A stretch of DNA of 61,358 nucleotides from Candidatus Methanoperedens sp. (GTDB taxonomy: Archaea > Halobacteriota > Methanosarcinia > Methanosarcinales > Methanoperedenaceae): positions 1 through 61,358 of the forward strand of contig VEPM01000024.1 of NCBI GenBank assembly GCA_012026795.1. The letters run 5' to 3'. Made by a program: the position numbers and the translations under genes. Shown here piece by piece: positions 16,894 to 60,669 of this stretch (the first letter of the stretch is position 1; every line of letters starts with the position of its first letter). The notes beneath the pieces were generated by a model. That model did not search any database. It was not told the DNA's origin and saw nothing but the letters and a program-made list of their open reading frames with translations.

Positions 16894-16904
16894 TTTTCCC
16901 CGTC

Positions 16905-21623: not shown

Positions 21624-21753
21624 CTCATCATCCTTACCTTTTTGATTCTCGCAAAAGCGCATCAACCTGTTTCCAGGCATACGCTTTTGGGCATGCGATG
21701 CATCCTAACCCGCTTACGTGGAATTTTTGGTATTAAATCTTCGCTTGCTGTTT

Positions 21754-21837: not shown

Positions 21838-21905
21838 TATTAACCTGATGGTCATATATCTTTAAATTATTCAATAAATTTTATTCCACAGTTTGTTAAC
21901 CGCCT

Positions 21906-35605: not shown

Positions 35606-38600
35606 ATGACTCAAGCCCAAAACAAGAAATTAGTATTAATTGTAATACTGATGATATCATTAGTATTTACCGCAACAGCGCAAACAAAAGATGAAACCCA
35701 TACAGACATAATTTCACTCATATCGATTTTTATTAATTCTCCGTATCCTGGCTATACATCCACAGGTCAGGCTGATACTGCTGGAAATACCTATTCGATC
35801 GCTATCGAAGATATCAAAACACTGTCCCAGAAATCAAACGACGGAAATAGCAGGCTTCGCGCATTAAAGCTTACTGGAAAACCGGTTGAAATAAAAACAC
35901 CTGGATTTGAACCTTTAATTTACCTTGACATACATACTGACAGTCTCAATTATTCCAGTATTACAATCCGTATCATAAATGAATGGAACCGGTCTGATCT
36001 TATAATATATCACTACAAAGATAATGAGTGGCAGCCTCTTGAAACAACAATAACCGGGAATTATCTTGAAGCTGTTACAGAGTCACTCTCTGTTTTCGCC
36101 GTAGGCGCCCCTGGAGGGATAAACATCCATCTTCTTGCAGATAAGGAGGTCATGACAGGCGGCAATGCAGTGATCGCAGGTGCCGCATATTTTAATAATA
36201 GCACTGCTGCCTCCGGCATCAATATCGAGATCAATCCGTCATGGGATAATTTATCCGGCACAATAACAGATTCGCAGGGAAACTTCCAAAAAATCCTGAA
36301 AGTACCCCAGCAGCCTGGCAATTACACAATCAGGGTCAATGCAACATCAGGGATACAGGACGGAGAGAACCAGACAACTATCCGGGTAACGAACACGAGT
36401 TTATTTGTTATTAGCACAGGCGCTACAATCCGAAATACTACAGTCTCAAAAGCAGAGGCAAACATATCTTTTTCTTTCCCCCAAGATGCAGTTCCGGTAT
36501 CAGCCGATTTGTTGCTTTCACTTGATTCGGCCGCGGGCATGAAAGTCAGTATGAATAATATAACGATCTACAATTCTACAACAAACAATGTAACCCTGAA
36601 CCTTACGGGTTACCTCGACAGCCAGAACGACATCAATATTACAACCGATACATCAGCAAATATCACTTATACCATAAACCAGAGTTTCCATATTACAAAA
36701 ACGGCATCAGTAACCAAACCTGATTATTACAGCGCAAATCTCATTGTTATCAACGATATGGATTACAACTGGAACAATACCGATATTTCCTATCATTTGC
36801 CAGATGGCGCTTACAATGTTTCTGTATGGGAAAATAGCACAAATCTTACAGGGAACAGCATAATACCTGGAAACGGCGGGATCCTGACAATAAAAAACAG
36901 CGCGATCGGAACCATTTACAATAAAACGGCCAGGAATTTTGTCGTTAACTACAGCCTGGCACAATTAACAATTAACATGACAGTTAGCCATGAAGAAGCA
37001 GAAAAAGGGGAGATCATTTATGTGACCCCGGATGTGTATTATAACGGTTCGGGGATAAGTACCGGTGTCTGGATACGGATATACCGTGATACCACACTCG
37101 TATATAACAGCAATGTCAGCAGCGGAACTCCTTTTTCTTTCTCAGATATAACTGCCGGGGTATATAATATCACAGCAACAGCCTCATCCAATATAGATGG
37201 TGTGGAAAGGAATGATGCAAATCGCACCTATATACATGTAAAAGACCTCCTGCTTTACCTTAATGTAAAACCGGCCTTATCGCAGCGGCAGATAAATGTT
37301 ACCGGGAGAGCATATTATACTAACAATACAGGCTATGAAGGACCTATATGGATCAGTTCCGGAAGCGATCATTATAGCACCTTCTCTGATCCATCCGGAT
37401 TTTTCAGCTACACTTTACCTGGAAAAAACCCGGGAAAATATACAATATCAGCAAATATCACATCTGGCAACTATACGCCGTCAGCAAGCGCTTCTCTTGA
37501 TGTCATGGATAAATATTTTTACCTGTTAAACGGGACGCTGCCCGTGGTAAATGGGGAAATGACCCTTGCCCCGGATGCGACTCTCTGGATAAATAGCACT
37601 AACATCACGCGCGCAAACCTATATATATTCTGCAAGACTGCAATACGTCTTCTCTATAATCCACTGCCTGTAGCTCACAAGATCATCCCTGCAAACCTCG
37701 GGGGAAACATAAGCGGGACATTCAAATTGCCCCTGTATCCTTACGATTATCTTGAAATACTCGGCGCCTATCTGAATACCACAGCAGAAGACCCTGTGGA
37801 TACTGTAAAAGATATGGCATTCAACCTGACAATAGATAACCGGGAGATCAACAGCTTAATAATACCTCATGGTGATCTGTCATTTGAACACAGCGACAAT
37901 ATTAATGGATATATTCCGGGCATGCTAAAGCCCGGGGTCACCCAGACTGTCAGGGTATATAATAAGAACACGGGAAGCAACCAGCAGTATTATTTCACGG
38001 AGGAAATATATGTCGATTACATAGGTCGCATATCCTCACCCTGCGACCTGTATATAAAAACCAACAACAATTTCACTTATGCTAATACCGGGAACTTCAC
38101 TAATGCAACTGTGGATATATCGGGTCTGGATTCAGCCAATAATTCCATTCGCCTGAATAACTGCAGAAGGACGTCAATACTTGGATATAACCTGACGCTT
38201 GATAAACAATATTCAGGATATACCATACATAACCAGGCCGAATCATCGGGCAGGTATAATATCACAGATACAGTGACCTTCATTCCCGAATCTAACCTTA
38301 CCTCAGTTACCGTAACCATACCGCTGCTTGAACGCGCAAAAGATGTTATTGTTTATGTTAACGGGACAGATATGACATACAGTGCCGTTATCAGCGAGAA
38401 CCTTGAACTTCCCCTTCCCCAGGTCAATACTGCAAAGATCATAAATATCACATACTGGGTGCCAATCCTTGATATTATTCCATCTGTCGGCCAGCAATTC
38501 AATCGCGGGGACATCGTGGATATCAGCGCGAATATTACTTATTCCGGTGAAAATGTAAGCGATGCGACAGTTTTTGCCAATGTGACAAAAGGTGGAGATG

Positions 38601-41600
38601 CGATCGCGAATTTAAGTCTTGCCAATATATATGGCGGTTTATACTCTGCTAACTTCACACTGCAACCTGATGCAGCACTTGGTCTGTATAATGTTACAAT
38701 CCGGGCTTATAATAGTTCAACTGAAATTGACAACGAGAGCATCGCCTTCAGGGTCAACGGCCTTAATGTCACAGTGAATGCAGGCGGGCCTTATGTTGTG
38801 GATAAAAATGCATCGATATCAGGATACATAAAAGACCTTGAGAACAACACAAATGTAAGCGGTGCATTGGTTAACATCTCGGTATGGAACAATACATTTT
38901 ATAATAGCACAGCCACAACCTCTACACCATCAGGATATTATAATCTCACGCGGCCTGTTGATACCGCCGGGGATTATAATATCACCGTGGCAGCTTTTAA
39001 TAACAACATCCGGGGAATCGCCAGTACAACTTATAAAGTAAAATATAATGTCTCTGTTTCTGTTTTGCAGGCATCGTATAATAAGAACAATCCCGTTCCT
39101 GCCAATCTCTCGGTTTATGACCGCTCCCTCATACCTGTTCCGGGAGCGGCTGTCAATTCCGTTGTTAATATTTCGAACCGGTATTTCTACTATAATGGTA
39201 CAACTGACCTGAACGGGATGTTTAATTTCACCCACAGTAATACCAGCAATTACGGGCAATACAATATTACTGCCAGTATCTCAAAGGACAACAATACCGG
39301 GAACGCAAATACAAGTTTCAGGATTAGCAGTCTGACCGTCACTGCGAACACTGCGCCGGAATACAACGCTGGCAATGTAGTTGTGATCAACGGGACAGTA
39401 TATGACGATGAGACTGGCACAAAAGTAACAGGAGCTGCTGTCAATATCACAATTAACAATGGAAGCGCTGAGATATCCAGGAACACTACTTCATCAGCAG
39501 GGAATTATTCCGTATCCTTCATGAATTTATCAGCAGGTGTTTATACAGCCTGGGCGGATGTGACCTACACAACATTGTCAGGAAGCGCAGCAGGCGGATT
39601 CCATATTCACTATAATGTGAATACCACCACCAACAGGGCAATTTATTCAATTGGCGAAGCAGTGCCGATAAATATAACAGTTTCGGATGTGAACAACCAG
39701 CCGGCAACAGCTGATATATCGGTTAACATCAGGAAACCGGACTCCGGCATTGAAACAATATCGGGCTTCGCAATTAACGGGTCATTTAATACAACATTTA
39801 CAAATTCAAGTATTGATGGGGATTATACCATAAGTGCAGGCGCACTGAATAATTCCACATCAGCACATGGCAATGCTATGAACCGGAGCTTCAGGGCATC
39901 CGGATTTTTCGTGAATGCAAGCTTTGACCGGGATCCTGTCCGATACAGGCCGGGTGAAACAGTCATTATATCCGGTTTGATGAGGGACACATTAGGAGCA
40001 GCAAGGGTTGCTGATGTGTTTATCAGTATTAATAACTCATCCGGTATCGGGATTGCAAATACAACACTGTACGGTATGAACGGCAGCTATACCTGGAACT
40101 ATACGCTTTCAAACGCGTCAAAAGCAGGATGGTACGCTGTAAATGTAAATGCCGTCACTCCGGAAGGTGTTGGAAGCAGCGCAACTGCCCGGTTCGAAGT
40201 TGTTTTGAATATTATTGTGAGCACTGGCACCCATTATAATCCCGGGGATGCAGTCAATGTCACCGTTTTTGCCAGGAACGGCAGCGTTCCGGAGGACGCT
40301 GTGATTAACATGTCGGTGCAGAAATTCGATATCTGGGATGAGTTCACAGGCACATATTTCGATACAAATAAAATGATGGCAACCGCACCTGATTATGATT
40401 CAGGTTATTATCTAACTCTTTTCCAGAATGATGAACTGGTGTTCTATACAGCAAACCTCACTATAAATAATACATGGATTGGAAAAGCTGTACAGCTCAA
40501 CACTACATCTTTACCATCCCACTTTATACTTGATTATGAAGTTTCTACGGGCGGCACTTCAAGCCAGCTCTTAGCAAGACCTGATATTGGAAATACAACG
40601 AATTACGTTCGCCTGAATTTCCGGAACTATCTGGATAATGCACAGGACGGATACGATGTAGTCGTAAACGGAGTGTCACAATATGTGTTCAAAGAGAGCA
40701 TGGATAACGAGAAAATCCGTATAACCATAGAATACAATGCAGGCACAGTTCGTTTTTATAAAAACGGTGAGCAGTTCTACCAGACCAATTTCATGATGCC
40801 CGCAAATTCTGCCATAAAATTAAATGGCTATGCACTCAACCCGGATACTGGTACAAGCGCATATATAAAATATGACAATGTAACCCTTTATAACCTGAGT
40901 TCACCCGTGCTGTCCCAGGGCACTCCCGAAGGGACCGGAGGCAACTACAGCTTTAATTTTACAGCAGGATCTGTCGGAATGTACAGGATAAATGCAACAT
41001 CCGGCAACAGCAGCAGTTTCACAGCTTTCAAGGTCAGTACCCTGGATGTTTCCTCGGTTGTGTATGGCCCGTATAATTTCAATGAATCAACACTTTCAAA
41101 CAATACTGTTGTTCCTCTTATAGTGCATGGAACTGTCCAGGATACTGAGACCAGGGCAGGTATTACAGGCGCCGATGTCAGTGTAACGATACTTAAAAAT
41201 GCAATCCCGCTGACACAAAAAGTTACCTCTTCAATATCGGGAAACTATGTCATCAGTTTTGCAGGTGAACTGGACAATACAGCTGTCGGCATATTCAACC
41301 TGAGCGTAAATGTGAATAAAAGCGGCATACTTGCTTCCCGGAACAACTCATTCAATGCAATCACAATAAACCAGTCATGGATCGACCCGTCCCTGGATTA
41401 CAGGGTTCCTATCCTGCTTAATAATGAAAGTGGCCTGGCAGGCAGATGGCAATTTAATGAAGGAACCGGCACAAATGTTGCTGATTCAAGCGGAAATGGA
41501 AATACGGGAACGCTGTATGGTGCATCTGTTGCAAATCCCGCAGAGTCATGGACAGACGGGAAGTCCGGGACTGCCTTGCAGTTTGACGGATTGGATGATT

Positions 41601-44600
41601 ATGTCCAGGTCAATCCGGCTCTGTCATTGAATTTATCTTATGCTACATATTCCATGTGGGTGAAAGTTGGTCCATGGATTCAACAGTGGGGTGGAACCAA
41701 CGTAACAACTGCCCTGTTCCAGGGGATGTGGGCTAACGGATCGGCATTCTTGATAACAAACGATCCTATCCCTGCTTTCTCAGCGAGGATCTATGTGAAC
41801 AAGACTGTATACGATTCAACCACTATTCCGATAGACAGGAACTCGTACCATATGCTAACTATGTCTTTCAATGGAACTAATTTCAGGGTATATCTTGACG
41901 GAACATTGAAATATGAACATTCAGGCGCAACAGGTGTCCTGGATACCTCGGTCTTTTCGAATCCGCTGATCATCGGTGCAGCCACGAACGGGGCATGGAG
42001 GGACTTCTCAGGTTCTATTGATGAAGTCAAAATATACAACCGGGCACTTTCAGATTCTGAAATTGCAGACAGTTTTAATTCCTCTAACCTTGCCCATATC
42101 TATAATCCCGGTATTGTATCATTTAACCTTGCCCTTCCGGGCGGAGCTACGGATAGCAGCGCAGCACTCTATGATATAGAAGGGAACAGGCAGACAGCGG
42201 CCATATTGGATATGGGAAGCTATCTTAATATTACATTTACAAGGACGCTTTCAGCATATGAAGGAAAGCCACTTTATCTTTATTTTGAGCGGCCCTATCC
42301 GGTCACACCCCACAATTCAGCCCTTAGTTCCTTGAGTTCACCATACAGCGTGGTCACCGGGACTGTTGAGGGATACAGGTCGACTATTACTCCTGACAGG
42401 AACATATACTCAGCAGGCGAGACCGTAGTGCTAAAATCGGAACTCAGGAACATCACAGGAGATCCATTAGTATCCGCCATTACTACAACGATATATTATC
42501 CCAACGGGACTATTGCACAGGTTAATTATTCTTCGACGAACGACTCAGGCGAAGCTTATGTAAACTACTCAATTCCAGCGTTAAAAGGGAGTTTCAGTGC
42601 AGTTACAGAGACTATCGTAAACGGGATACCCAGAAAAGAGAGTACAAGCTTCAGTGTCGGAAATCTCACGGTTGATATTGATACTGATAAATCAGTATAT
42701 AATATATTTGAGAACGTAAAAATTGGAGTGAATGCAAACGATAACGGAAATACAATAGCTGCCAGCGTCACACTTAAAATATCCAATCCTGATGGCACAA
42801 AAGTCCTTGAAGAAACAAAGAACACAAAATCATTCTGGTTACAAACAACAGATGCTGATTTTAACACCGCGTCCTTATGGAATGTGAATGTCAGCGATGG
42901 AAACGTTGTTCTTGCAAAAACAGGGAGTAATTATTATACATCAGGAAGCCTGACCTCGCAAGTATATGATAGCGAATGGGCAACCGACTGGGGAATCCTT
43001 CAATGGAACGCGACAACGCATACTTCTAATAATATTACGATATACACGAGAACATCACAAAATAACATCACATGGTCCTCATGGGTGGCAGCGGCAAACG
43101 GCGGAGAAATAGAAAGCAGTTCAAGGTATATCCAGTACCGGGCCAATCTTACAACAACCGATATTACAAGAACACCCACACTTGAAGATGTCACTCTGGA
43201 TTTCGGGATACCTGCAGAATTCAATTATCCTTTAACTGATTCGCCCCTGGGCAATTATACGATTGCAGTAAGCGCGAACAAGACCGGGAATGCCGGATTC
43301 AATAGCACGATTGTTGAACTCGATTCATTTGACTTAAGCGCAACAGTCGGCAAACCAGTTTATACTTCAAACGAAAATATCACGATAAGCGGTGTAACAG
43401 CATACAGGGGAGCAAATTCAAATGCGGGTGTGAACCTGGCGATTAAAAAAGACCTTGCTATCAATCCGTCGTTTGAAACAGACCTTGATGCTAATTCGCA
43501 ACCAGATGGCTGGATTCCTGCATGGGATGGAATAATGACACGGGATGCTGCGGCAAGAACCGGAAATTATACTGTAAAAGTTTCAAGATCAGCAGGCAAT
43601 GTCACCGAAGGGCTGTGGTACTATCCCAACATGTATGTGGTCTCACCCAATACAAATTACACATTCGGCATGTGGGCAAGGACAGATAATTTTACAGGAG
43701 GTTCTGTAAGATTGTGGGCGTCCTGGTACAATGGAACGACTTCTATTGCCACAGCCATAAACGCGATCAAAACCATAAATTCACAAAACGGATGGACATT
43801 CATCCAGGGAAGCGCAGTATCTCCGCTAAATGCCAATAACGTGAGAGTGCACCTTGTTTCAAACATCCTGGGAAGCGTATGGTTCGATGATGTGAATATC
43901 GAGCCCCCGGATAACACTGCGGTTTACACATCCGGTACCACATCCGATCCTGCTTACAGCTTTAATCTTTCACTTCCCGGTCCAGGCTCATACATAGCTT
44001 ATGTTAACGGGAACTACACAACTAATGGAACTCTTTCCAGGACAAACACAACAACATTCACAACAAGAATCCTTGATGTCACTGCCAGCGCAGGCGGTCC
44101 GTACGGACAGGGTTCCGGTAATGTCACTATATCCGGTAATGTTACAGATAACAGTACAAAAATGAATATTCGCGGGGCTGCTGTCGATATTGAGATCATA
44201 TATCCTGACAATTCAACTAAAAAATATACTAATACCTCGAATATACTGGGTTATTATGAACTTATTATAGCTACACCCGGCCTTGCAGGAAAATATAGTG
44301 TGAATATAACAGCAAGAGATTACCAGGGCGTAAAAGGAACAGCAAACACCCAATTCAATATTGGCCTCATTTCTACATTGTCAACAGAAAAAATATATAT
44401 AAATAGCGGCAGTTTCCAGAACCTCACAGCAGAAGCATTCGAGGATACAAGGATTGATGATCTTGAAGGAACCTCCACGAGCTGGACATACCGCACCGGG
44501 ACTGATGGCACCATCAGGGGACAAAGCACCCTTAATCATAAGAGCGGATCAAAATCGCTCAAAGTAGATTATAGTCTCGCCGCAGGAAATGAGTACATGT

Positions 44601-47600
44601 ACCTTGAATCAGGAATGGGAGCAGTGAATGTCAGCAACTACAGGATCATATCGTTCTGGCTTTACATTCCCCCGCCTGGTGCATTTGATTCTGTAGCGCT
44701 TGTTCTTGAGAATGACCCGACAGGATTGAGCAGCGATGAAAAGATATACGGGCAAAACCCGGTTCCTGGCTGGAACTATTATTCGTTCAATGTCAGCACC
44801 TTCGGAAATGATCTTTCCCACAACCATTACCTGACAGTCTTCATAGATGATAATAACGGCACAGGTGAAGTCACAGGTACCGGATCATTATATATTGATG
44901 ACCTGAAACTGGTAAAAGGCGCTCCTGTTACTGGTGCATTTGTCACAATAAATATCACAAGACCTGATATGACTATAAATAATTTTTCAACCCTTTCAGG
45001 TATTGTCGATAACGGTGACGGCACATATTCCCTGAACTATACAAACACGGATCTGGCTGGTAATTATACCGCCATTTCGAATATAGATACTGGAACATAT
45101 AATAGCACGTCATCGACCACTTTTGGGATTGATGGTATATCAATATCCTCAAAGATAACAGGACCTTATGTTTTAGGGAATAACCTTACAGTTTCGGGTA
45201 ATATCAGTTCGGTATTGAAAGATATAGCTTTTGAAGGGAACATTACTTTTGACCTGGCATATCCTGATGGTACGATGGCCAGGTATAATAAATCAGGCAC
45301 GATCCCTGCAACCGAAAGTTATACGCAAACAGGGAGCTCAGGGCAATCAGGATTTAACAACCCTTCAAAAGTTAATGATGGTTCTACTTCAACTTATGCT
45401 TACACTTCCAGCTGCGCAGGCTGTTATATCCAGGTAACATGGCCGGATAACAGAACTATCAGCAGAATAAGAGCGTACTATTACTCACAATACTGGCCAA
45501 AGTCTTATAAGATCCAGGTTCTTGCGCCTGATGGTGTTACATGGGTCGATAAGAAAACAGTATCCGGTTTCATAGCAAGCCCCACAACATATCCAACAAT
45601 AGAGGACAGGATACCAACAACCATAACAAAAGGTGTTAGAATATATTATCAAACATCATATTATAATTCATATATTTATATCTATGAAATGTGGGCATAC
45701 GGTCCTGAAGGGTATTCCATTGATGGAATTCCCCTGCCGCTTCCGGGTAATTATACGTTGAACGTTTCTGCCGTGGACTCTTATGGTATCAGTGGAAGCG
45801 CTCCATCCCTGAATGTACCTGTGAGGTATATTGTCTCGGTGCAGTTTGACAAGAAAAATTATGAATTAAAAGACCATGTCAGGGCTTATGTCCGCGCTTT
45901 CAATAGCACGGGTTTTGAACCCGGCGTCCAGGTAACATCGCAGCTTGTATATGCTGCGAATGGTTCTATCATAGACACAGAAAATACCACTTCAAATTCA
46001 ACGGGTGTTGCCAATGTGAGTTTCACACTTCCGGACGAGCTTACCTCATATAAATTGATCACAAATGTGAGTAAGAATGGCATCCAGGGTATTAGTTCGG
46101 ATATGATCGCAACCACAAACCTTCGTATCTGGACTGAGAGAGGAGAAGCACAGATAGGTGTTTCTTCCTGGGCTGAAAATTCAGCGCCCCAGGAGTACCG
46201 GAACATCACGATCAAAGTGGCAGCGCTTGCCATATCAGGAATGCGTATGACAGGCCAGAACCTGACCGCCAGGATTTATTACCCGAACGGGACAATTTTC
46301 GGTTCTTATGTCATGAACGAAAGTGATAAGATATATTCTACAAATGTCCTTCTGCCTGGCAAGAACGTCCCGGAAGGTACTTATGATATAGAAATAGCAG
46401 AATATCCTGGCCTGAGGAGTAATTTCAGTGTCATGGTCTGGGGATGTGCCCAGTGTCATAAACCCAATACTGTCACATATCATTACGTTTATCACGATGA
46501 CCCAAGTATAGCTCCTTCCACATTTGCTATCAATCATTCACACAGGACTTTAAGATACGATATGTGCGGAGGGGGCGGATGCCATAGCTCTCTGGATTCA
46601 CGCTGCAGTGGATGCCATGCCTTTGAAGGAAGCACGAATGCGCCTTTAAAATGCAAGGCATGTCACAACAGCGCTATGAACAATAGCCAGGGATATCTCA
46701 ACACAACCTATGGAGCAGACCTCCATGCAAACATAAATACAAAACCCGGCGGCCCATGGTACGGCAAGAGCACAGCATGCGAATCCTGTCATGGCACATT
46801 AAACAGCACAAATAAACCCGGTATTCCGCAATGCACGAACTGTCACCCGAATTCATCCGGCTCCGGCATGAAGACAATGCCGGGAAACCTGAACGGGTAC
46901 AGTACAACTCTTGAGGACTTTGAGGACGTATCGGATATCGTAGCTACAAGCGGATACCGATATAGCACTATATCAATCGTTGCTGATTCGAATAATCACG
47001 GCGGCAGTTACTCAGGGAAGATCAATTACGGCTTCGGTCCGGGTTACGGCAGGGTATATCTCGACAAGAAAAACCTTGACCTGACAAATGCAACCAGAAT
47101 AAGCGCCTGGGTGTATGGAGATAACTCCGGGACCACCATGTACCTTGGCATCAATAACACAAAATCCTCAAAAGTCAACTGGCACCAGTCAGCCCCGATA
47201 ATTATCAACTGGACAGGCTGGAAAAAGGTTTCTGTCCCCATAAAGGAACTCAGCCAGTCAGCTCTCCTGTACATTACTTTTGCAGATACTGTGAGGATCA
47301 GGCTTGAAAGCAATAATGAACTCGGATCAAGCGGCACAATATTTATTGATGATTTGAAAAAAGAAGCTGTGGGAAGCCACACCCAGTATGATGAGGTAGA
47401 ATGTGGTGTCTGTCATGCCGGAAGACATGAAATCAAGAAAGCTCCCCGGTGCCAGGATTGCCACCAGAACCAGGAACATGGCTGGCCAGCGCAGGATAAA
47501 TATGCAGGCGATAATGCATCATGCATGAACTGCCATAACGCGGATGCTTCAGAGAATCTCATCAATATCAGCAACATCAGTGAACACGCAGAAATTTTGG

Positions 47601-50600
47601 AGAGCTTCGAGAATATCTCGGTATTTACAACAGATTTAACCGGATTTAACCAGTCCGGTATTTATTATAACGGGATTTACGAGGATAACGGAAATCACAG
47701 TGCAGTCCTTAATTATACAAACCTGGGCGGGTATCTTGGCAACAGTATCAATGTTACCGATGCTTATAAATTCAAAGGAATAAGCGTGTTCGTGAAAGCA
47801 TCCGGTGATCCGGGAACAAAAATCGCATTCGGAGTTTATACGACCATGTGGTATAATTATTCTGTCCCGATGGACTGGGATGGATGGAAGGAGATCAATA
47901 TATTATATCACAATGTCACGGTCAACGAAACCATTTCGTTTAACGCCTCAGGAAACCCATCAAAGATATGGTTTGGTGTCTATGAGGCAAATAGTACCGG
48001 AACGGTCTATTTTGATGACCTGAGACAGGCTGTTTCTGACGATTACCACCAGTATGAAAGCTGGAAGTGCGCTGATTGCCACACCCGGATCAAGAACCTT
48101 CACGGTATAACAGATATTACATCAGCGATCGTTGATTGTTCCCTGTGCCACAATCTCAATGAACCTCATTACAAACAATTCACACGCGTTTGTATGGACT
48201 GTCATTTTGACTCACGGCATGGGGAGGTCGAGGATGGGAATTTCACGAATTATGAAAAAGCTTCCACATGCCTGAAATGCCACACAGTCCCGCATGATTT
48301 CAACCGGACGCATCTTGAAACTGCGGAATGCAACACCTGCCACCAGCAAAGGATACATGGCCAGAATTACCAGAACGTCCAGTACAATAAGAGCCTGCAT
48401 CTTGATTGTGAGCGATGTCACGGCAAGACCACGGAGGAAGCACCGCTTCCGGTTGGCTCAGGAAGCCCGCGCACAACGATACTTCGCCTTTCATATACAT
48501 ACAATAATGAAACCCAGTGCCTGTTCTGCCATAAGAACCCGGTATCTGCATACAACATTCATGCCAACGATTCAGTAAATGAAAGCAACCAGGGACTTGT
48601 TAACAGGGTCCTGGACAATTCAATATGCTCTGACTGCCACGGAATAAAATCGGTCCTGGCCGATACAGACAGGGATGAATTGGTAGCAGCCGATCCGGAT
48701 CGGGAACCGTACGCTCCCCAGATAGACGGGCACGGGAATGTATCCTGCTATAAATGCCACGGGCACAGGCCAGAGACCCTTACACTCAATTACGGGTCAA
48801 ATTGCGCTGGATGCCACCAGAACATGGCAGAATTGACCGAGCTTATTCCTGGAACTCTTAATGATTCACGTCTCACCAATGTAACAAACCCCGGGGAAAA
48901 AGCCCTTATCGTTCATCCCCCGCAGGTCACCGGCCATGGGAATGCATCATGCAGCAACTGCCATGGCCATGTGAACTCCAATCTGACCTATGTTGGATCA
49001 TCGGCCATTGACTGTGCAAACTGCCACAGGAACACAAGCACAAGTTACCCCCTGATCCCATTCAGGGAGCCGGACTCTTTCAGGAGCATTGTTACAAATC
49101 CGGGGGGAAATCCGCTTAATGTGATTGCGCCGCAGGTGCTGGGGCATGGCAATGCAAGCTGCAGGGAATGTCATGATCATACACCTTCGTATTTCAATGG
49201 GTTTGATTTCACAGAAGGAACAATTTGTGAATCATGTCACCAGAACTCGAGTAAGAACATTTCACTGATCGAAAATACACATCCTGATTCAAAACGAACG
49301 GAAATCGTAGATAATTCCACCTCCATATCCATTGTGCATTCTCCCCAGGTAATGGGACATGGACAGACGGCCTGTACCGTATGCCATTCCCATAGCGCAG
49401 AACGTCTTGTTTACTATGGCGGGAATAATACGGATTGTGTTATATGTCACTATAACGAAAGTTCAGCAGCTACCCTGTTGCAGAATGGCAGCTATATGGT
49501 ATCTACCCAGGTCACGCCGCATCTTGACATGAACTGCACCGCCTGTCACGGCCATACTCCTGCAAACATGACGAGAATAAAAGATTGCAGCATGTGCCAC
49601 CAGGATTCCACTTTTGCAGATTCACTATCTGATACCTATGGTAAAGGATTGAATCTTACAGGGCCGGAAAGCAACATTTCGGCTGTCCAGATACCCGGAT
49701 TGCAGCATAGTACAAGCAATATAGCAGGAAGGAAATGGAACAAGACCACTGCATACTGGAATAATAATTATGAAGCCTGCCAGTACTGTCATACCATTTC
49801 GAAAAACTTCAGCAGCCATAATCCCCTCGGAAGGATAGCAGCGATAGCAGGCAATAATACTGCAAATAATAGCCTGTCAGGCTCATACTGGTGTGCTGCA
49901 TGCCATTACCAGGGATATGTATCCGGGAATGTCACATACAATGACATGGTCAATACTTTTATCGAAATGGGTCTTCCTGTGCCTCCGGAGATAACCGGAA
50001 ACGCAAGCTATGGGAACTATGCGACTTCCAATGACGGGGTTATTTATTATGATCATGGCCTTTCTGACTATTCGGATAATGAATGTACAAGATGCCATGG
50101 AAAAGCCAATAATACAAAAAAGTTCATGCATGGTGTTACCACAGGATCAGGCGGGAGTGAATGCCTGAACTGCCATGATGGCAGGCCAACAGGGCCGGTG
50201 GATGACCCTGATAAATATCCGGGGATCGTCAATACCTCATTTGGAAAACATAAGAACCTGGATACCACGAACGGGTCTGACATATTGGATAATAATGACT
50301 GTGTTGCATGCCATTATAATACTTCATTAATGGATAATCCGGAATGGACAACTCCTACACGCGCATGTAATGATTGTCATCTGGAAGGAAACTTCCCGGC
50401 TCCTGAAATAGTAAATCACAGACCTGGCGGGACAAACATAAAAACAACTGCTAACTGTACCACATGCCATAACAATAGTATCAATACATTTGAATATAAT
50501 AAAAATGCAAGTGTCAGCCATTATGTCACAAATAGATCAATATTGCATCCAACTGTCAACCAGACTGCAATTCCCAGGTTCGGATTCTTCACCCAGGCAG

Positions 50601-51568
50601 ATTCCCTGGAATATAATAAAGAATGCAATTCCTGTCATAATCCATCCAATTCAAGCTATGGCAATGGCACACTTATTACAAAATCCCACACCGGACGCGG
50701 TACATGCAATGGGTGCCATGTAAATGGCAGTGCGTCTGACCTGCATAATAGTTCGCTTGGAATGCCGTTAACGACCTCATGTAAATCATGCCACACAACA
50801 TACGCATCAAAATATAATGCGCCGAACCTCACAGGGACGCCCATGGTCGATTATTCAACATGTAATGGGGGAAATTGCCATGGCACTGATATTTCCAATA
50901 GCCTGGATACCCTGGCAAGGCATAATGCTGACAGGACATATCCGGGTACAGGAGGTTCTACCGATACAGTTTATCTAAATAACAATGTTTCACTCACAGT
51001 TACAAAAGGAACTACTGTTGAAGTTACAGCAAGGGTTAAAGATGCACCTGGCGCTGCTTCACGTGTTGGTGGGGCTGAATATTATATCGATATCGATCCC
51101 GGCCAGGGAAAAGGAATTCCTATGTCAGCAGCGGACGGCTTGTATGATGCAGCCAGGGGAAACTGGGAGAATATTAATGTAACAATCGATACAGGCAGCC
51201 TCTCAGATGGTAACCATACTATATTTGTCAGGAGTGTTGATATCGGGAAACAGTGGAGTCCCTCAAAGAATGCAACGCTCTTTGTCCAATCTCTTGGATA
51301 TATCAACGGGACAGCAACAAGCAGCGGCGTGCCCTTAGCAGGTGCGATAATAACGACAACCGGCGCGAACACAACCACATCAGCAGATGGTAATTTTTCG
51401 TTGAGAGTACCTGCAGGCACTTACAATGTCACTGCCAGCAAGCAGCCGACGCACTACGACAATACCAGTATGGGTGTGGTGGTTGTTCCGGGTAATATTA
51501 CTACAATACTCCTTGATCTTGCGAAGAAACCAACGGGAAATATAAGTGGTGTGGTGAGTAGCATATAG
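35606..51568 (+). CDS. giant S-layer-like multiheme cytochrome c (5320 aa)
   Basis: Signal peptide (residues 1-26). Residues 170-3600 are a string of Ig-like, carboxypeptidase-regulatory-like and other beta domains. They include a LamG-like domain (about 1940-2155), CBM-like domains (2618-2770, 2951-3105) and a discoidin-like domain (3235-3367), with dense N-x-S/T sites. Residues 3613-5090 hold, by hand count, 36 CxxCH and two CX4CH motifs (CGGGGCH, CNGGNCH). Two CBM-like domains are inserted between haem motifs (about 3768-3925, 3998-4140). A short beta C-terminus ends at NISGVVSSI with no membrane helix, sorting tail or C-terminal anchor. It is probably exported and surface-bound, carrying electrons through or along the cell envelope. 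It resembles S-layer-fused cytochromes of ANME archaea in layout. Confidence 0.88.
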   Translation: MTQAQNKKLVLIVILMISLVFTATAQTKDETHTDIISLISIFINSPYPGYTSTGQADTAGNTYSIAIEDIKTLSQKSNDGNSRLRALKLTGKPVEIKTPGFEPLIYLDIHTDSLNYSSITIRIINEWNRSDLIIYHYKDNEWQPLETTITGNYLEAVTESLSVFAVGAPGGINIHLLADKEVMTGGNAVIAGAAYFNNSTAASGINIEINPSWDNLSGTITDSQGNFQKILKVPQQPGNYTIRVNATSGIQDGENQTTIRVTNTSLFVISTGATIRNTTVSKAEANISFSFPQDAVPVSADLLLSLDSAAGMKVSMNNITIYNSTTNNVTLNLTGYLDSQNDINITTDTSANITYTINQSFHITKTASVTKPDYYSANLIVINDMDYNWNNTDISYHLPDGAYNVSVWENSTNLTGNSIIPGNGGILTIKNSAIGTIYNKTARNFVVNYSLAQLTINMTVSHEEAEKGEIIYVTPDVYYNGSGISTGVWIRIYRDTTLVYNSNVSSGTPFSFSDITAGVYNITATASSNIDGVERNDANRTYIHVKDLLLYLNVKPALSQRQINVTGRAYYTNNTGYEGPIWISSGSDHYSTFSDPSGFFSYTLPGKNPGKYTISANITSGNYTPSASASLDVMDKYFYLLNGTLPVVNGEMTLAPDATLWINSTNITRANLYIFCKTAIRLLYNPLPVAHKIIPANLGGNISGTFKLPLYPYDYLEILGAYLNTTAEDPVDTVKDMAFNLTIDNREINSLIIPHGDLSFEHSDNINGYIPGMLKPGVTQTVRVYNKNTGSNQQYYFTEEIYVDYIGRISSPCDLYIKTNNNFTYANTGNFTNATVDISGLDSANNSIRLNNCRRTSILGYNLTLDKQYSGYTIHNQAESSGRYNITDTVTFIPESNLTSVTVTIPLLERAKDVIVYVNGTDMTYSAVISENLELPLPQVNTAKIINITYWVPILDIIPSVGQQFNRGDIVDISANITYSGENVSDATVFANVTKGGDAIANLSLANIYGGLYSANFTLQPDAALGLYNVTIRAYNSSTEIDNESIAFRVNGLNVTVNAGGPYVVDKNASISGYIKDLENNTNVSGALVNISVWNNTFYNSTATTSTPSGYYNLTRPVDTAGDYNITVAAFNNNIRGIASTTYKVKYNVSVSVLQASYNKNNPVPANLSVYDRSLIPVPGAAVNSVVNISNRYFYYNGTTDLNGMFNFTHSNTSNYGQYNITASISKDNNTGNANTSFRISSLTVTANTAPEYNAGNVVVINGTVYDDETGTKVTGAAVNITINNGSAEISRNTTSSAGNYSVSFMNLSAGVYTAWADVTYTTLSGSAAGGFHIHYNVNTTTNRAIYSIGEAVPINITVSDVNNQPATADISVNIRKPDSGIETISGFAINGSFNTTFTNSSIDGDYTISAGALNNSTSAHGNAMNRSFRASGFFVNASFDRDPVRYRPGETVIISGLMRDTLGAARVADVFISINNSSGIGIANTTLYGMNGSYTWNYTLSNASKAGWYAVNVNAVTPEGVGSSATARFEVVLNIIVSTGTHYNPGDAVNVTVFARNGSVPEDAVINMSVQKFDIWDEFTGTYFDTNKMMATAPDYDSGYYLTLFQNDELVFYTANLTINNTWIGKAVQLNTTSLPSHFILDYEVSTGGTSSQLLARPDIGNTTNYVRLNFRNYLDNAQDGYDVVVNGVSQYVFKESMDNEKIRITIEYNAGTVRFYKNGEQFYQTNFMMPANSAIKLNGYALNPDTGTSAYIKYDNVTLYNLSSPVLSQGTPEGTGGNYSFNFTAGSVGMYRINATSGNSSSFTAFKVSTLDVSSVVYGPYNFNESTLSNNTVVPLIVHGTVQDTETRAGITGADVSVTILKNAIPLTQKVTSSISGNYVISFAGELDNTAVGIFNLSVNVNKSGILASRNNSFNAITINQSWIDPSLDYRVPILLNNESGLAGRWQFNEGTGTNVADSSGNGNTGTLYGASVANPAESWTDGKSGTALQFDGLDDYVQVNPALSLNLSYATYSMWVKVGPWIQQWGGTNVTTALFQGMWANGSAFLITNDPIPAFSARIYVNKTVYDSTTIPIDRNSYHMLTMSFNGTNFRVYLDGTLKYEHSGATGVLDTSVFSNPLIIGAATNGAWRDFSGSIDEVKIYNRALSDSEIADSFNSSNLAHIYNPGIVSFNLALPGGATDSSAALYDIEGNRQTAAILDMGSYLNITFTRTLSAYEGKPLYLYFERPYPVTPHNSALSSLSSPYSVVTGTVEGYRSTITPDRNIYSAGETVVLKSELRNITGDPLVSAITTTIYYPNGTIAQVNYSSTNDSGEAYVNYSIPALKGSFSAVTETIVNGIPRKESTSFSVGNLTVDIDTDKSVYNIFENVKIGVNANDNGNTIAASVTLKISNPDGTKVLEETKNTKSFWLQTTDADFNTASLWNVNVSDGNVVLAKTGSNYYTSGSLTSQVYDSEWATDWGILQWNATTHTSNNITIYTRTSQNNITWSSWVAAANGGEIESSSRYIQYRANLTTTDITRTPTLEDVTLDFGIPAEFNYPLTDSPLGNYTIAVSANKTGNAGFNSTIVELDSFDLSATVGKPVYTSNENITISGVTAYRGANSNAGVNLAIKKDLAINPSFETDLDANSQPDGWIPAWDGIMTRDAAARTGNYTVKVSRSAGNVTEGLWYYPNMYVVSPNTNYTFGMWARTDNFTGGSVRLWASWYNGTTSIATAINAIKTINSQNGWTFIQGSAVSPLNANNVRVHLVSNILGSVWFDDVNIEPPDNTAVYTSGTTSDPAYSFNLSLPGPGSYIAYVNGNYTTNGTLSRTNTTTFTTRILDVTASAGGPYGQGSGNVTISGNVTDNSTKMNIRGAAVDIEIIYPDNSTKKYTNTSNILGYYELIIATPGLAGKYSVNITARDYQGVKGTANTQFNIGLISTLSTEKIYINSGSFQNLTAEAFEDTRIDDLEGTSTSWTYRTGTDGTIRGQSTLNHKSGSKSLKVDYSLAAGNEYMYLESGMGAVNVSNYRIISFWLYIPPPGAFDSVALVLENDPTGLSSDEKIYGQNPVPGWNYYSFNVSTFGNDLSHNHYLTVFIDDNNGTGEVTGTGSLYIDDLKLVKGAPVTGAFVTINITRPDMTINNFSTLSGIVDNGDGTYSLNYTNTDLAGNYTAISNIDTGTYNSTSSTTFGIDGISISSKITGPYVLGNNLTVSGNISSVLKDIAFEGNITFDLAYPDGTMARYNKSGTIPATESYTQTGSSGQSGFNNPSKVNDGSTSTYAYTSSCAGCYIQVTWPDNRTISRIRAYYYSQYWPKSYKIQVLAPDGVTWVDKKTVSGFIASPTTYPTIEDRIPTTITKGVRIYYQTSYYNSYIYIYEMWAYGPEGYSIDGIPLPLPGNYTLNVSAVDSYGISGSAPSLNVPVRYIVSVQFDKKNYELKDHVRAYVRAFNSTGFEPGVQVTSQLVYAANGSIIDTENTTSNSTGVANVSFTLPDELTSYKLITNVSKNGIQGISSDMIATTNLRIWTERGEAQIGVSSWAENSAPQEYRNITIKVAALAISGMRMTGQNLTARIYYPNGTIFGSYVMNESDKIYSTNVLLPGKNVPEGTYDIEIAEYPGLRSNFSVMVWGCAQCHKPNTVTYHYVYHDDPSIAPSTFAINHSHRTLRYDMCGGGGCHSSLDSRCSGCHAFEGSTNAPLKCKACHNSAMNNSQGYLNTTYGADLHANINTKPGGPWYGKSTACESCHGTLNSTNKPGIPQCTNCHPNSSGSGMKTMPGNLNGYSTTLEDFEDVSDIVATSGYRYSTISIVADSNNHGGSYSGKINYGFGPGYGRVYLDKKNLDLTNATRISAWVYGDNSGTTMYLGINNTKSSKVNWHQSAPIIINWTGWKKVSVPIKELSQSALLYITFADTVRIRLESNNELGSSGTIFIDDLKKEAVGSHTQYDEVECGVCHAGRHEIKKAPRCQDCHQNQEHGWPAQDKYAGDNASCMNCHNADASENLINISNISEHAEILESFENISVFTTDLTGFNQSGIYYNGIYEDNGNHSAVLNYTNLGGYLGNSINVTDAYKFKGISVFVKASGDPGTKIAFGVYTTMWYNYSVPMDWDGWKEINILYHNVTVNETISFNASGNPSKIWFGVYEANSTGTVYFDDLRQAVSDDYHQYESWKCADCHTRIKNLHGITDITSAIVDCSLCHNLNEPHYKQFTRVCMDCHFDSRHGEVEDGNFTNYEKASTCLKCHTVPHDFNRTHLETAECNTCHQQRIHGQNYQNVQYNKSLHLDCERCHGKTTEEAPLPVGSGSPRTTILRLSYTYNNETQCLFCHKNPVSAYNIHANDSVNESNQGLVNRVLDNSICSDCHGIKSVLADTDRDELVAADPDREPYAPQIDGHGNVSCYKCHGHRPETLTLNYGSNCAGCHQNMAELTELIPGTLNDSRLTNVTNPGEKALIVHPPQVTGHGNASCSNCHGHVNSNLTYVGSSAIDCANCHRNTSTSYPLIPFREPDSFRSIVTNPGGNPLNVIAPQVLGHGNASCRECHDHTPSYFNGFDFTEGTICESCHQNSSKNISLIENTHPDSKRTEIVDNSTSISIVHSPQVMGHGQTACTVCHSHSAERLVYYGGNNTDCVICHYNESSAATLLQNGSYMVSTQVTPHLDMNCTACHGHTPANMTRIKDCSMCHQDSTFADSLSDTYGKGLNLTGPESNISAVQIPGLQHSTSNIAGRKWNKTTAYWNNNYEACQYCHTISKNFSSHNPLGRIAAIAGNNTANNSLSGSYWCAACHYQGYVSGNVTYNDMVNTFIEMGLPVPPEITGNASYGNYATSNDGVIYYDHGLSDYSDNECTRCHGKANNTKKFMHGVTTGSGGSECLNCHDGRPTGPVDDPDKYPGIVNTSFGKHKNLDTTNGSDILDNNDCVACHYNTSLMDNPEWTTPTRACNDCHLEGNFPAPEIVNHRPGGTNIKTTANCTTCHNNSINTFEYNKNASVSHYVTNRSILHPTVNQTAIPRFGFFTQADSLEYNKECNSCHNPSNSSYGNGTLITKSHTGRGTCNGCHVNGSASDLHNSSLGMPLTTSCKSCHTTYASKYNAPNLTGTPMVDYSTCNGGNCHGTDISNSLDTLARHNADRTYPGTGGSTDTVYLNNNVSLTVTKGTTVEVTARVKDAPGAASRVGGAEYYIDIDPGQGKGIPMSAADGLYDAARGNWENINVTIDTGSLSDGNHTIFVRSVDIGKQWSPSKNATLFVQSLGYINGTATSSGVPLAGAIITTTGANTTTSADGNFSLRVPAGTYNVTASKQPTHYDNTSMGVVVVPGNITTILLDLAKKPTGNISGVVSSI
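48715..49620 (+). repeat. five tandem diheme modules inside the giant cytochrome
   Basis: The protein repeats a unit of about 65-80 residues: (P)QV-x-GHG-x-x-S/A-C-x-x-CH-x-H, a 20-30 residue stretch, a second CxxCH, then a linker to the next PQV. Units start near the CYKCH, CSNCH, CRECH, CTVCH and CTACH sites. The GHG histidine before each first haem may be a distal ligand. Confidence 0.65.
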
Positions 51569-51737: not shown

Positions 51738-54700
51738 ATGTCGGAACCAGGGATAATCTTAAAAAATGTCAACAGAATTAAATTGTTGCTTGTTGTAATC
51801 GGTTTGTTCTTACTGGGATTTTCGAGTACTTCAGCTTCATCTCCCAACGATGAGTGTTTTGCCTGTCATGCCACAGAAAACAGGTCTGTCAATCAGTCTC
51901 TATATAATTCAAATCCTCATAATATTCTTGAATGCATTGACTGTCACGTAAATTCAACCACTCCTCAACCTGGTGATCCGGGTCATGGCCAATTCATAAG
52001 ACAATTTAATGGAAGTAATTTGACCGGGCCGATATTAACGAAATATTATTCCGAATATTTTTCTCTATGTTATTTCTGTCATGCGGAAGAAAAGGTTGTT
52101 GGTATAACATCTGAATATGTTTCGGGTTTAAGCCCGGACCATATGAATGATCCTATCATAGTAAGCAGTATGGGAACTAATTTTATTAATACGAATCCCA
52201 ACGGCCAACCGGACGCAGGAAGTTTCCCGGCAAATATTCACTGGGATCATCTGGATGATTTTGGAAGCATTCTGCACAACGGCTCTGCTTATTTTGACTC
52301 TAATCATGATGGGATAAAAGACTCTTATTATTCATGTGTTGCCTGTCATAATGTTCATGGAACTAACTACCCGAAGATGACAAGGGATAGTATGGCTATT
52401 TCATACAGCAATGATACGAATGGCGATTATGGATTCATAAAAAGCAGGGATTACAAGAATACATCTAATAAGGATTATATTTGCAATGGTGCATGCCATT
52501 CCAATGGAACCACGTTTACAAATTATTACAGAACAGAAATAAAGCTATTTCAGGGGTGTGTTTCCTGTCATTCGACCAATATGACAAAAGATTTCAATGT
52601 GACCGCTTTTGCCCGGGGGGTCCATGTCGATATTAATACGTCGAACGGAAGCGGATCTGTCAATAACAGCGATTGCTGGACATGCCATTATAACAGGAAC
52701 ATGAATAAATCCAATAAATATACATGTGTTGAATGCCATGTGCAGATACCCGGTATTGTACCCGATGCTCCTAAAGTAATATCGCATAAACCTGAAAAGA
52801 CAAATAAAACCTCATGTGAGGCCTGTCATGACCTTGTTAAACTTAATCCGGGTTTGAACGATGATGACCAGGAGTACCCAAATATTACTTCACACTACGC
52901 CCAGTTACCTTTAGTTCCGACAGAAAATTATTGTGACTACTGTCACGGTCCTGATGCCTCCTCTTTATTCCAGGCCCCATATAGAAATATCACTTCATTT
53001 TACCACAATAGTTCGAATGATTCATTCTCTGGTAATTCTACCTGCAGGACATGCCACACCAGGACTGATGTAACAGCCGATCCGTTAGCTAAGAATGATT
53101 CTAATTTCCACAATCTCACAACAGAGTATGGGGATGTAAAAATTAATGATACTGGCGTTGTTGCTAATTGTGTAGATTGTCATGTAGATCACAACACTAC
53201 ATTTGTAAATGCACCTTCACCGTCTCATAATATAACAGGGATGAATTTGACTCATTGCTACCTGTGCCATGGCAACAAAGTAACTGGAACGAACGTACAA
53301 AAGTTGCATGATGTTCGTTCAAATATTACGACAGATTGTATTTCGTGCCATCAACAAAATGAAGTTAATGTAAGTGTGTTTGGTTCTCACATGAATATAA
53401 ATTTAACAGGCGGTCAGGACAATATCACGGATGATGACTGCAAGACATGTCACTTTGGAAGTCAGACAGGAGAGCTGGATATGGTTCCAGGTGGAGCAAA
53501 TCGTAATAACACATATTATTGCGAAGATTGTCACGAAAATAATAGCTTACCCGGTGCGCCTGATGTTATATCACATAGACCTGGAAAGACTAACAAAACT
53601 TCGTGTGAGGATTGTCATGATCTTGTTAAACTTGATCCTGGCTTGAATGACAGAGGCCAGAATTATTCTAAAATTACATCTCATTATCTGCAAAAACCAA
53701 TCATACTGACCCAGAATTATTGTGATTATTGCCATGGTCCGGATGCATCCTCACCCTTCCAGGCTTCGAATCGTTCAATTCCTTCATTCTACCACAATAG
53801 TTCAAATGCTTCATTCCCGGAGAATGCTAATTGCAGGACGTGCCACACCAGGACTGATGTAACAGCCGATCCGTTGGCTAACAATGATTCTAATTTCCAC
53901 AACCTCACAACAGAGTATGGGGATGTAAAAAATAGTACTGGCGTTGTTGCCGATTGCATATATTGTCATGTAGATCATGACCCCCAGTTTGCCAGTGCCC
54001 CGCAGCCATCCCACTCAACATCAGGATTGGGCATTAATAAGTGTTATCTGTGTCATGGTACAAAAGTGACCGGAACGAATGCCCAAAAGCTGCATGATGT
54101 ACCCGCTGATGTTACGACAGGGTGCGTACAGTGCCATGCTGAACTTGATGAAATTAATATAACCCTGTTTGGCCGTCATATAAATCTCAATATAACAGAT
54201 GGCGGCCAGGAAAATCTCACAGATGATGATTGCAAGACCTGCCATTTTGGAGGCAAAACCGGAGATTTACTTATGATTCCGGGCGGGGCAAACAGCAGCA
54301 ACACTTATGATTGTGTAGATTGCCATGTTGATGGCGATGTACCTGCTCCCGGTATAAAGAATCACAGGCCTAACGGGACAAACATAGAAACAACTGCTAA
54401 CTGTACCACATGCCACAATAACAGTATCAATTTGTACGCTTTTTCATTAAATGCAAGTGTCAGTCATTATTTAACAAATGTATCACTCGTAAAAACAGTA
54501 AACCAGACCTTAAAACCACGCTTTGGATTCATGACTTCAGGAGATGCTCTTGCATATAACAAAGACTGCAATAATTGCCATAATCCATCAAATTCAAGCT
54601 ATGGTAATGCTACACTTATAACAACAGGCCATATTGGTAAAGCAACATGCAATGGGTGCCACGTGGATGGCAGTGCACCAGACCTGCACAATGAAAGCCT

Positions 54701-55514
54701 GGGCTTCCCGGTCACCTTTAATTGCCGCTCATGTCATACGACATATGCAGACAAATATGGGGCAGCTAACTTATCAGGGACTAACATGGCCGATTATTCG
54801 ACATGTGGTGGCAACAATTGCCATCTTGGAATCAGTAGTACTGGTAGTCTGGATACTCTGGCAAAGCACAATGTTGACAGGACATTTTCTGGTACAGCGG
54901 GTTCTACCGATACAGTCTATCTAAATAACAATGTTTCACTCACAGTCACAAAAGGAGTTCCTGTTGAAGTTACAGCAAGAATTAAAGATGCACCTGGTGC
55001 AGCTTCACGTGTTGGCGGGGCTGAATACTATATAGATGTTGATCCCGGCCAGGGGAAAGGAATCCCCATGGACCCGTCAGATGGTTATTATAATGCAGTC
55101 AAAGGAAACTGGGAGAACATTAATGCAACGCTCGATACAGGCAATCTCTCAGACGGTAACCATACTGTATTTGTCAGGGGTATGGATATCGGGAAACAGT
55201 GGAGTGCCCCGATGAATGCTCAGCTTGTTATCCAGCCCCTGGGATATATCAACGGGACAGTAACAAGCAACAGCGTGGCCTTAGCAGGAGCGATAATAAC
55301 GACCACCGACGCGAACACAATCACATTAGAAAACGGTAATTTTTCGTTGAGAGTACCTGCAGGCACTTACAATGTCACTGCCAGCAAACAGCCGACACAC
55401 TACGACAATACCAGTACAGATGTGATGGTTGCTTCAGGTAATACTACTATAATACTCCTTGATCTTGCGAAGAAACCAACGGGAAACATAAGTGGTATGG
55501 TAACGAATGAATAG
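51738..55514 (+). CDS. exported multiheme cytochrome c (1258 aa)
   Basis: Signal peptide with a hydrophobic core at residues 14-30. Hand count gives 27 CxxCH motifs, one CX3CH (CNGACH, about residue 251) and one CX4CH (CGGNNCH, near 1030). Two tandem modules of about 263 residues each carry eight haem motifs in the same order (52790-54350). From about residue 870 the sequence follows the C-terminal region of the 5320-aa protein, including the non-haem beta domains and the end AKKPTGNISG. No membrane anchor. It is probably an extracellular electron carrier working with the giant cytochrome. Confidence 0.88.
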   Translation: MSEPGIILKNVNRIKLLLVVIGLFLLGFSSTSASSPNDECFACHATENRSVNQSLYNSNPHNILECIDCHVNSTTPQPGDPGHGQFIRQFNGSNLTGPILTKYYSEYFSLCYFCHAEEKVVGITSEYVSGLSPDHMNDPIIVSSMGTNFINTNPNGQPDAGSFPANIHWDHLDDFGSILHNGSAYFDSNHDGIKDSYYSCVACHNVHGTNYPKMTRDSMAISYSNDTNGDYGFIKSRDYKNTSNKDYICNGACHSNGTTFTNYYRTEIKLFQGCVSCHSTNMTKDFNVTAFARGVHVDINTSNGSGSVNNSDCWTCHYNRNMNKSNKYTCVECHVQIPGIVPDAPKVISHKPEKTNKTSCEACHDLVKLNPGLNDDDQEYPNITSHYAQLPLVPTENYCDYCHGPDASSLFQAPYRNITSFYHNSSNDSFSGNSTCRTCHTRTDVTADPLAKNDSNFHNLTTEYGDVKINDTGVVANCVDCHVDHNTTFVNAPSPSHNITGMNLTHCYLCHGNKVTGTNVQKLHDVRSNITTDCISCHQQNEVNVSVFGSHMNINLTGGQDNITDDDCKTCHFGSQTGELDMVPGGANRNNTYYCEDCHENNSLPGAPDVISHRPGKTNKTSCEDCHDLVKLDPGLNDRGQNYSKITSHYLQKPIILTQNYCDYCHGPDASSPFQASNRSIPSFYHNSSNASFPENANCRTCHTRTDVTADPLANNDSNFHNLTTEYGDVKNSTGVVADCIYCHVDHDPQFASAPQPSHSTSGLGINKCYLCHGTKVTGTNAQKLHDVPADVTTGCVQCHAELDEINITLFGRHINLNITDGGQENLTDDDCKTCHFGGKTGDLLMIPGGANSSNTYDCVDCHVDGDVPAPGIKNHRPNGTNIETTANCTTCHNNSINLYAFSLNASVSHYLTNVSLVKTVNQTLKPRFGFMTSGDALAYNKDCNNCHNPSNSSYGNATLITTGHIGKATCNGCHVDGSAPDLHNESLGFPVTFNCRSCHTTYADKYGAANLSGTNMADYSTCGGNNCHLGISSTGSLDTLAKHNVDRTFSGTAGSTDTVYLNNNVSLTVTKGVPVEVTARIKDAPGAASRVGGAEYYIDVDPGQGKGIPMDPSDGYYNAVKGNWENINATLDTGNLSDGNHTVFVRGMDIGKQWSAPMNAQLVIQPLGYINGTVTSNSVALAGAIITTTDANTITLENGNFSLRVPAGTYNVTASKQPTHYDNTSTDVMVASGNTTIILLDLAKKPTGNISGMVTNE
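52773..54350 (+). repeat. tandem octaheme duplication
   Basis: Two adjacent units of about 789 bp, each opening KTNKTSCE-x-CHDLVKL and carrying CDYCH, CRTCH, C-x2-CHVDH, CYLCH, C-x2-CH, CKTCHFG and a final C-x2-CH. HTRTDVTADPLA and LTTEYGDVK are conserved word for word. Part of an earlier unit (last two haem sites) precedes the array at 52675-52770. Confidence 0.75.
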
Positions 55515-59572: not shown

Positions 59573-59573
59573 A

Positions 59574-60572: not shown

Positions 60573-60669
60573 ATTCGTTGATTATTTTATGAGTACAAAA
60601 AGGTAACTATTTAATGTGGAGGTTTTCTCATATTTGCTAGTGTTAACCATTTTAATTTGAAATTCGATG

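Follow-up and report, generated by a model that had tools for sequence, protein, structure and literature searches.

A 5320-residue Methanoperedens cytochrome with the apparent front of an S-layer conduit and a shared, putatively tagged tail

The locus and its giant cytochrome gene

The window, by which we mean the whole 61,358-nucleotide stretch analysed here (contig VEPM01000024.1 of Candidatus Methanoperedens sp., assembly GCA_012026795.1), contains one giant open reading frame together with a neighbouring cytochrome gene (Table 1). The giant frame runs from an ATG, preceded by the ribosome-site-like sequence AGAGGA, to a TAG with no internal stops, and the strand opposite it carries 190 stops. 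The first-pass annotation had described a single 5320-aa frame with about 3600 residues of surface-type domains plus 38 haem sites, and the observation is confirmed: the frame is uninterrupted and has orthologous giant frames in two other genomes, and the 36 CXXCH motifs lie between aa 3614, the first motif of all, and aa 5059, with two CX4CH motifs at aa 3654 and 5086.

The haem part (aa 3601-5110) contains 76 Cys, exactly 2 x 38, and 84 His, of which 38 are proximal ligands and 46 are spare, a number sufficient for bis-His ligation. Its cysteines are used solely in haem motifs and its histidines suffice, as is characteristic of a multihaem c-type cytochrome, and the 3600-aa front has a Cys count of only 5. 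Because the haem part holds exactly two Cys per motif, all 38 sites, including both of the CX4CH type, are very probably real haem sites. The haem part matches the Pfam families Cytochrome_C7, MtrC/MtrF II/IV and cytochrome c3 and includes a CBM11-like domain, while the front matches MG2, Big_1 and LamG_3; on the basis of these matches the initial description of an extracellular cytochrome with adhesive or sugar-binding modules is supported. The first 3600 residues contain 178 N-x-S/T sites. Four insertion regions in the front, one of them the LamG_3 domain, are without counterpart in the orthologues from two other species of the genus (genomes G008 and G012). AlphaFold2 (AF2) modelling of the haem chain segment aa 4150-4870 gave a mean pLDDT of 29. 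Midway along the haem chain (48746-49438, aa 4381-4611) there is a repeat of ~70 residues with two haems per repeat, of the form HGN-x-SC-x-x-CHGH ... C-x-x-CH with spacings of 19-22 and 49, and it is kept in another family of the order.

Table 1. Features of the giant cytochrome gene and its neighbour, in window coordinates.
Feature	Position	Strand	Basis
Multihaem surface cytochrome, 5320 aa, 36 CXXCH + 2 CX4CH	35606..51568	+	ORF; motif and Cys counts
Signal peptide, aa 1-26 (approximate), sole hydrophobic segment of the protein	35606..35683	+	Sequence; hydropathy
Haem-free front, about 3570 aa, beta-sandwich-type surface domains (MG2, Big_1, LamG_3)	35684..46405	+	
LamG_3 (concanavalin-like) insertion, aa 1957-2166, not in G008/G012 orthologues	41474..42103	+	Pfam; orthologue alignment
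Window-only insertion, aa 2410-2535	42833..43210	+	Orthologue alignment
Window-only insertion(s), aa 2942-3087, galactose-binding/CBM-like by eye	44429..44866	+	Orthologue alignment; sequence
Window-only insertion, aa 3271-3380, discoidin-like by eye	45416..45745	+	Orthologue alignment; sequence
Haem chain, front part, 31 motifs	46445..50176	+	Motif spacing against G008 and G012
CBM11-like domain between haem motifs, aa 3759-3881	46880..47248	+	Pfam
Second module resembling the CBM11-like one, about aa 3995-4150	47588-48055	+	Sequence, by eye
Putative junction, aa about 4858-4885, between motifs 31 and 32; S-layer-type orthology stops, tagged-tail homology starts	50177..50260	+	
Putative swapped-in tail module with the final seven haem motifs, an Ig-like and a TTR-like domain, and the C-terminal peptide	50261..51565	+	
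Transthyretin-like (CarboxypepD_reg) domain, aa 5231-5307, AF2 pLDDT about 95	51296..51526	+	Pfam; AF2
Putative C-terminal tag K-P-T-G-N-I-S-G-V-V-S-S-I, aa 5308-5320, not part of the predicted fold	51527..51565	+	
Neighbouring cytochrome N52, 1258 aa, 27 CXXCH, same tail and tag (KKPTGNISGMVTNE)	51738..55514	+	

The remaining genes of the window include a 906-aa fusion (5970-8690, +) of a COX1 haem-copper oxidase subunit I with FixO-type mono-haem cytochrome c and cbb3 subunit-III-type cytochrome domains, followed by UbiA-like and polyprenyl synthase genes. This fusion occurs in a genome that also encodes methyl-coenzyme M reductase, of which the gamma subunit was found. A cluster of large hybrid histidine kinases, rich in PAS domains and equipped with receiver domains, lies upstream of the cytochrome genes (14497-24260, -, and 24569-27580, +); it also contains an NMT1-type binding protein and a CheB-CheR-PAS fusion. 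Three putative secreted or membrane protein genes of 686, 332 and 190 aa lie at 57512-61242 (-), the 190-aa one near the window end, and Pfam gave no match to those of their translations that were scanned.

Orthologues and the exchanged back end

The orthologues in G008 and G012 are about 60% identical to the window protein; one is a single 5442-aa frame and the other, of about 5439 aa, is broken by one TAG. In the G012 orthologue (contig C87, L046:12949-12951) this lone TAG lies in NQSWFDP*RDYRVPILL and could be a sequencing error, the mark of a pseudogene or a read-through site. Thirty CXXCH motifs, those of the front part of the haem chain, have nearly identical spacing in all three proteins. 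Part of a giant orthologue is present at a contig end in G023, and the front and parts of the haem chain also occur in another family of the order, as a 6598-aa protein with 67 CXXCH in G034, a 5308-aa protein at a contig end in G073 and a partial copy in G079. The 6598-aa frame (G034:C5:614-20407) stops right after a CXXCH; it lacks a C-terminal membrane helix, and no tag was seen where it ends. Because the front and the haem spacing are conserved in relatives, and no 20-mer is repeated inside the giant gene, a frameshift or assembly artefact is very unlikely to be the source of the giant size.

The earlier suggestion that this is among the largest cytochromes of any archaeon stands for chain length but not for haem number. 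An 86-haem archaeal cytochrome has been published from ANME-2c (PMC9012536) and a 113-haem cytochrome from Ca. M. manganireducens (PMC7082337), and these, together with the 6598-aa relative, rule out a record size. The window protein is thus among the longest by residues, with a haem number ordinary for its group.

Beyond the shared haem chain, the G008 and G012 proteins continue with 22 more haems, an S-layer region whose two halves are separated by a lone haem, and a C-terminal membrane helix, which hydropathy indicates in both. In the G008 orthologue the S-layer domain is matched by PF07752 (44.8 bits; cut-off 30), and a gene with a PF01578 (CcmF-type) match adjoins it. In the window protein no Pfam match to the S-layer domain (PF07752/DUF1608) was found, hydropathy gave no hydrophobic segment besides the N-terminal one, and none of the window genes scanned had a PF01578 cytochrome-assembly match. 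The idea that the protein forms an arm spanning the S-layer is therefore not borne out, as S-layer domain, C-terminal helix and CcmF-type neighbour are all lacking.

The change of ending can be placed within the haem chain. Identity between the window protein and the G008 orthologue drops from about 12 to 2 of every 20 residues at aa 4861-4880 and reaches background from about aa 4980, the residual identity between aa ~4880 and 4980 reflecting intervening haem motifs that align by chance. From about aa 4921, identity to cytochromes of the same genome climbs to 10-19 of every 20 residues, and the last ~450 residues of the giant are a module common to other cytochromes of the genome. As judged by sequence comparison, the surface domains and haem motifs 1-31 that make up the front are orthologous to those of S-layer-conduit cytochromes with the ANME MHC-B layout (see below), and the back end appears to have been replaced by the shared tail.

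This exact front-tail join was found only in the window genome among the genomes searched. In G034, contig C43 carries a second copy with this kind of tail, its front cut by the contig end and its join elsewhere; the C5 copy is 72% identical to it up to their divergence and has a different ending. Since the C43 copy carries such a tail and the C5 copy ends differently, it seems likely that tail exchange on the giant front happened more than once. Contig C213 of G023 was considered as a second instance of the same fusion and was rejected, as its upstream part is not the giant's front.

S-layer cytochromes are encoded elsewhere in the window genome. On each of contigs C27, C45 and C47, a 12-haem/S-layer gene is accompanied by a 16-haem membrane-anchored one and by a gene of 640-650 aa in the CcmF position, which is termed CcmF-like here by position and by likeness to the G008 neighbour. 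At all three loci the 12-haem/S-layer gene stops at a TGA inside a region that is continuous as S-layer in G008, and right after that TGA begins the 16-haem gene, whose product has a signal peptide of its own as well as a C-terminal TM helix. Recoding of an in-frame TGA in three S-layer cytochromes was considered and rejected in favour of two adjacent genes, the second having its own signal peptide. C45 and C47 contain an additional 514-aa gene resembling a multicopper oxidase.

The tail module and its C-terminal peptide

The last 261 residues of the giant are 70-76% identical to the tails of N52 and of cytochromes on contigs C7 and C15 of the same genome, the value for N52 being 76%. AF2 modelling of the tail from 60 sequences gave a mean pLDDT of 84.7 and two well-predicted beta-sandwiches, and the model of the transthyretin (TTR)-like domain superposes on the carboxypeptidase D domain 5aq0 with an rmsd of 1.3 over 80 columns. 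The final 13 residues have no secondary structure in the model, with declining confidence; because the prediction was of a monomer, an unpaired terminal strand would be expected in any case.

The last ~97 residues, comprising the CarboxypepD_reg/TTR-like domain and these 13 residues, close 60 fetched proteins from this genus and from G034 and G079. With a model from which the peptide was excluded, 65 complete ORFs were recovered, 60 with a terminal domain followed by the motif and 5 with an internal domain and no motif, a ratio in which internal and other non-terminal copies are under-sampled, the carriers having been fetched mainly from matches that reach the tail's end. Two internal copies continue past the position of the motif. 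Among the carriers are cytochromes with 5 to 54 haems and also haem-less proteins, which by eye resemble subtilases and beta-helix, beta-propeller, phosphoesterase and cohesin proteins; signal peptides are present in most. The window genome alone has 16 carriers, 9 of them cytochromes. Within the domain, no other stretch of 10 residues is as conserved as [KR]-P-T-G-x-I-x-G-x-[VI] (3.39 bits against an average of 2.45), and the first G of this pattern lies 9 or 10 residues from the C-terminus in 50 of the 60 carriers. The fronts of the carriers are unrelated, and the remainder of the domain is about 31-76% identical among them.

The distribution of the tail is narrow. The exact peptide pattern occurs in at least 3 of 393 genomes of the phylum, a lower bound because the scan took the DNA pattern with a stop three codons on and only TAA or TGA as stops; all three belong to the Methanoperedens genus or to that of G034 and G079, and the reversed control gave 0. 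With the tail profile, strong matches were obtained in many species of the genus, though not in every one, and beyond it only in G034 and G079 (genus g4) among 80 genomes searched.

Short conserved C-terminal signals on many unrelated secreted proteins of one organism are familiar from PEP-CTERM, PGF-CTERM and sortase tails. The distribution of the tail ending on such varied carriers suggests that it, too, acts as a sorting or attachment tag. Unlike those systems, the peptide is followed by neither a membrane segment nor a basic run, and no PF04203 sortase was found in 36 genomes of the group. Anchoring by a sortase of this family was rejected on that result. In literature of partial coverage, searches for a carboxypeptidase-regulatory-like C-terminal archaeal sorting signal and for Methanoperedens with 'carboxypeptidase' gave nothing relevant, and the novelty of the signal is accordingly unproven.

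The peptide reads as the first strand (G-x-I-x-G-x-V) of a next TTR-like repeat, the domain itself beginning G-Y-I-N-G-T-V. Such a strand, lacking the rest of its sandwich, has the look expected of a donor strand. As the peptide duplicates the opening beta-strand of a TTR-like repeat whose other parts are missing, we favour attachment by beta-strand donation to a partner as the mechanism by which it might act. By analogy, a beta-strand completes a partner's sandwich in the archaeal thread pilin Saci_0406 and other donor-strand proteins (PMC9715654); the strand of Saci_0406 is N-terminal and builds a homopolymer, whereas the window tag is C-terminal, and the analogy proposed is one of mechanism. 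Alternatively, the peptide could be no tag at all but simply what is left, inert, of a truncated tandem repeat carried along with a duplicated module. In favour of this, it has just the appearance of the opening strand of a further repeat, and in two internal copies the sequence extends beyond the motif. Against it, the peptide is the most conserved part of the domain, on unrelated fronts and at a near-fixed distance from the stop, and we regard this explanation as unlikely.

Relation to known cytochromes and possible role

The published layout of ANME multihaem cytochromes (MHC) of type B is a haem-free N-terminal region, a long haem chain, an S-layer domain and a C-terminal TM helix (PMC9012536); a CcmF2 gene alongside and a peptidase M6-like domain in the haem-free region are further marks of the type. 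The window protein shares with it a long haem chain preceded by an N-terminal region without haem sites. The layout is matched further in G008 and G012, whose orthologues also have the S-layer region, split by a single haem, and the C-terminal TM; the G008 gene moreover has a CcmF-type neighbour, matched at the level of family PF01578. In contrast, the window protein is without S-layer domain, C-terminal TM and CcmF neighbour and has four extra insertion regions and a different tail. Its haem-free region gave no Pfam or NCBIfam match to a peptidase M6-like domain. With MHC type C (PMC9012536) it shares the absence of an S-layer domain and of a C-terminal TM and the presence of a large haem-free N-terminal region, but it has no Pfam or NCBIfam match of the pectin-lyase type, its front is orthologous to the S-layer type, and the published description consulted (PMC9012536) contains no tagged tail. 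The MHC/S-layer proteins of Methanoperedens, apparently the same genus, carry 12-113 haems (PMC7082337) and are likewise giant multihaem surface proteins, whereas the window protein lacks the S-layer domain and has only 38 haem sites. The window genome also resembles that of Ca. Methanoperedens manganicus (PMC7082337) in having three 12-haem/S-layer loci.

Conservation of the front and of 30 haem sites with the S-layer type would be compatible with the window protein still being an S-layer-spanning MHC-B conduit by a route that does not need the lost domain. Against this, the S-layer domain, the TM helix, 22 haems and the CcmF-type neighbour are all missing, and the genome retains three other S-layer/TM cytochrome loci for that role, which makes a conduit function quite unlikely. 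The junction itself could be suspected of having been made in silico, by joining an S-layer-type front to the tail of another cytochrome, as it falls within the haem chain, where paralogues are alike, and is unique to the window genome among those searched. A repeat-driven mis-join is unsupported because no stretch around the junction longer than about 15-21 bases recurs elsewhere in the genome. Moreover, the tail is just 70-76% identical to the paralogues found, and the missing S-layer end is present elsewhere in the genome only as loci of their own, at 37-39% identity. The frame remains open with exactly two Cys per motif, and a comparable front joined to a tail of this kind is also present in the other family, so that we consider an assembly chimera to be very unlikely.

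On balance we favour the explanation that the protein is a giant front whose S-layer and membrane end has been replaced by the tagged tail, and that it acts as an extracellular relay, delivered or fixed by way of that tail and not spanning the S-layer. According to this proposal the giant would be exported by its signal peptide and gain its haems outside the membrane. The tail would then deliver it to, or fix it in, the matrix or the cell surface, in place of anchoring in membrane and S-layer. The relay might be fed with electrons by shorter cytochromes or by the S-layer conduits that the genome encodes separately, and the LamG/CBM/Ig-like front could bind sugars, a mineral or other cells. The earlier interpretation of the protein is thus supported in part.

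We also put forward, tentatively and with slightly more doubt than confidence, the broader idea that the TTR-like domain and [KR]-P-T-G-x-I-x-G-x-[VI] together constitute a sorting or attachment tag, probably acting as a donor strand, that is undescribed and confined to this lineage and that brings cytochromes and enzymes to a common extracellular site. Tail swapping would add or remove this tag, so that one and the same giant front could be built into the S-layer of one species, while in another the tag would serve to release or attach it.

Giant ANME cytochromes were already known; what is new here is the back end and the lead provided by the C-terminal tag. In published models of ANME extracellular electron transfer, S-layer-fused giant cytochromes cross the S-layer. 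The same giant front can exist without its S-layer and membrane parts, and a short C-terminal signal may define an extracellular protein set of these methane-oxidising archaea. Through the tag, it becomes directly testable which cytochromes wire into the coat and which work outside it.
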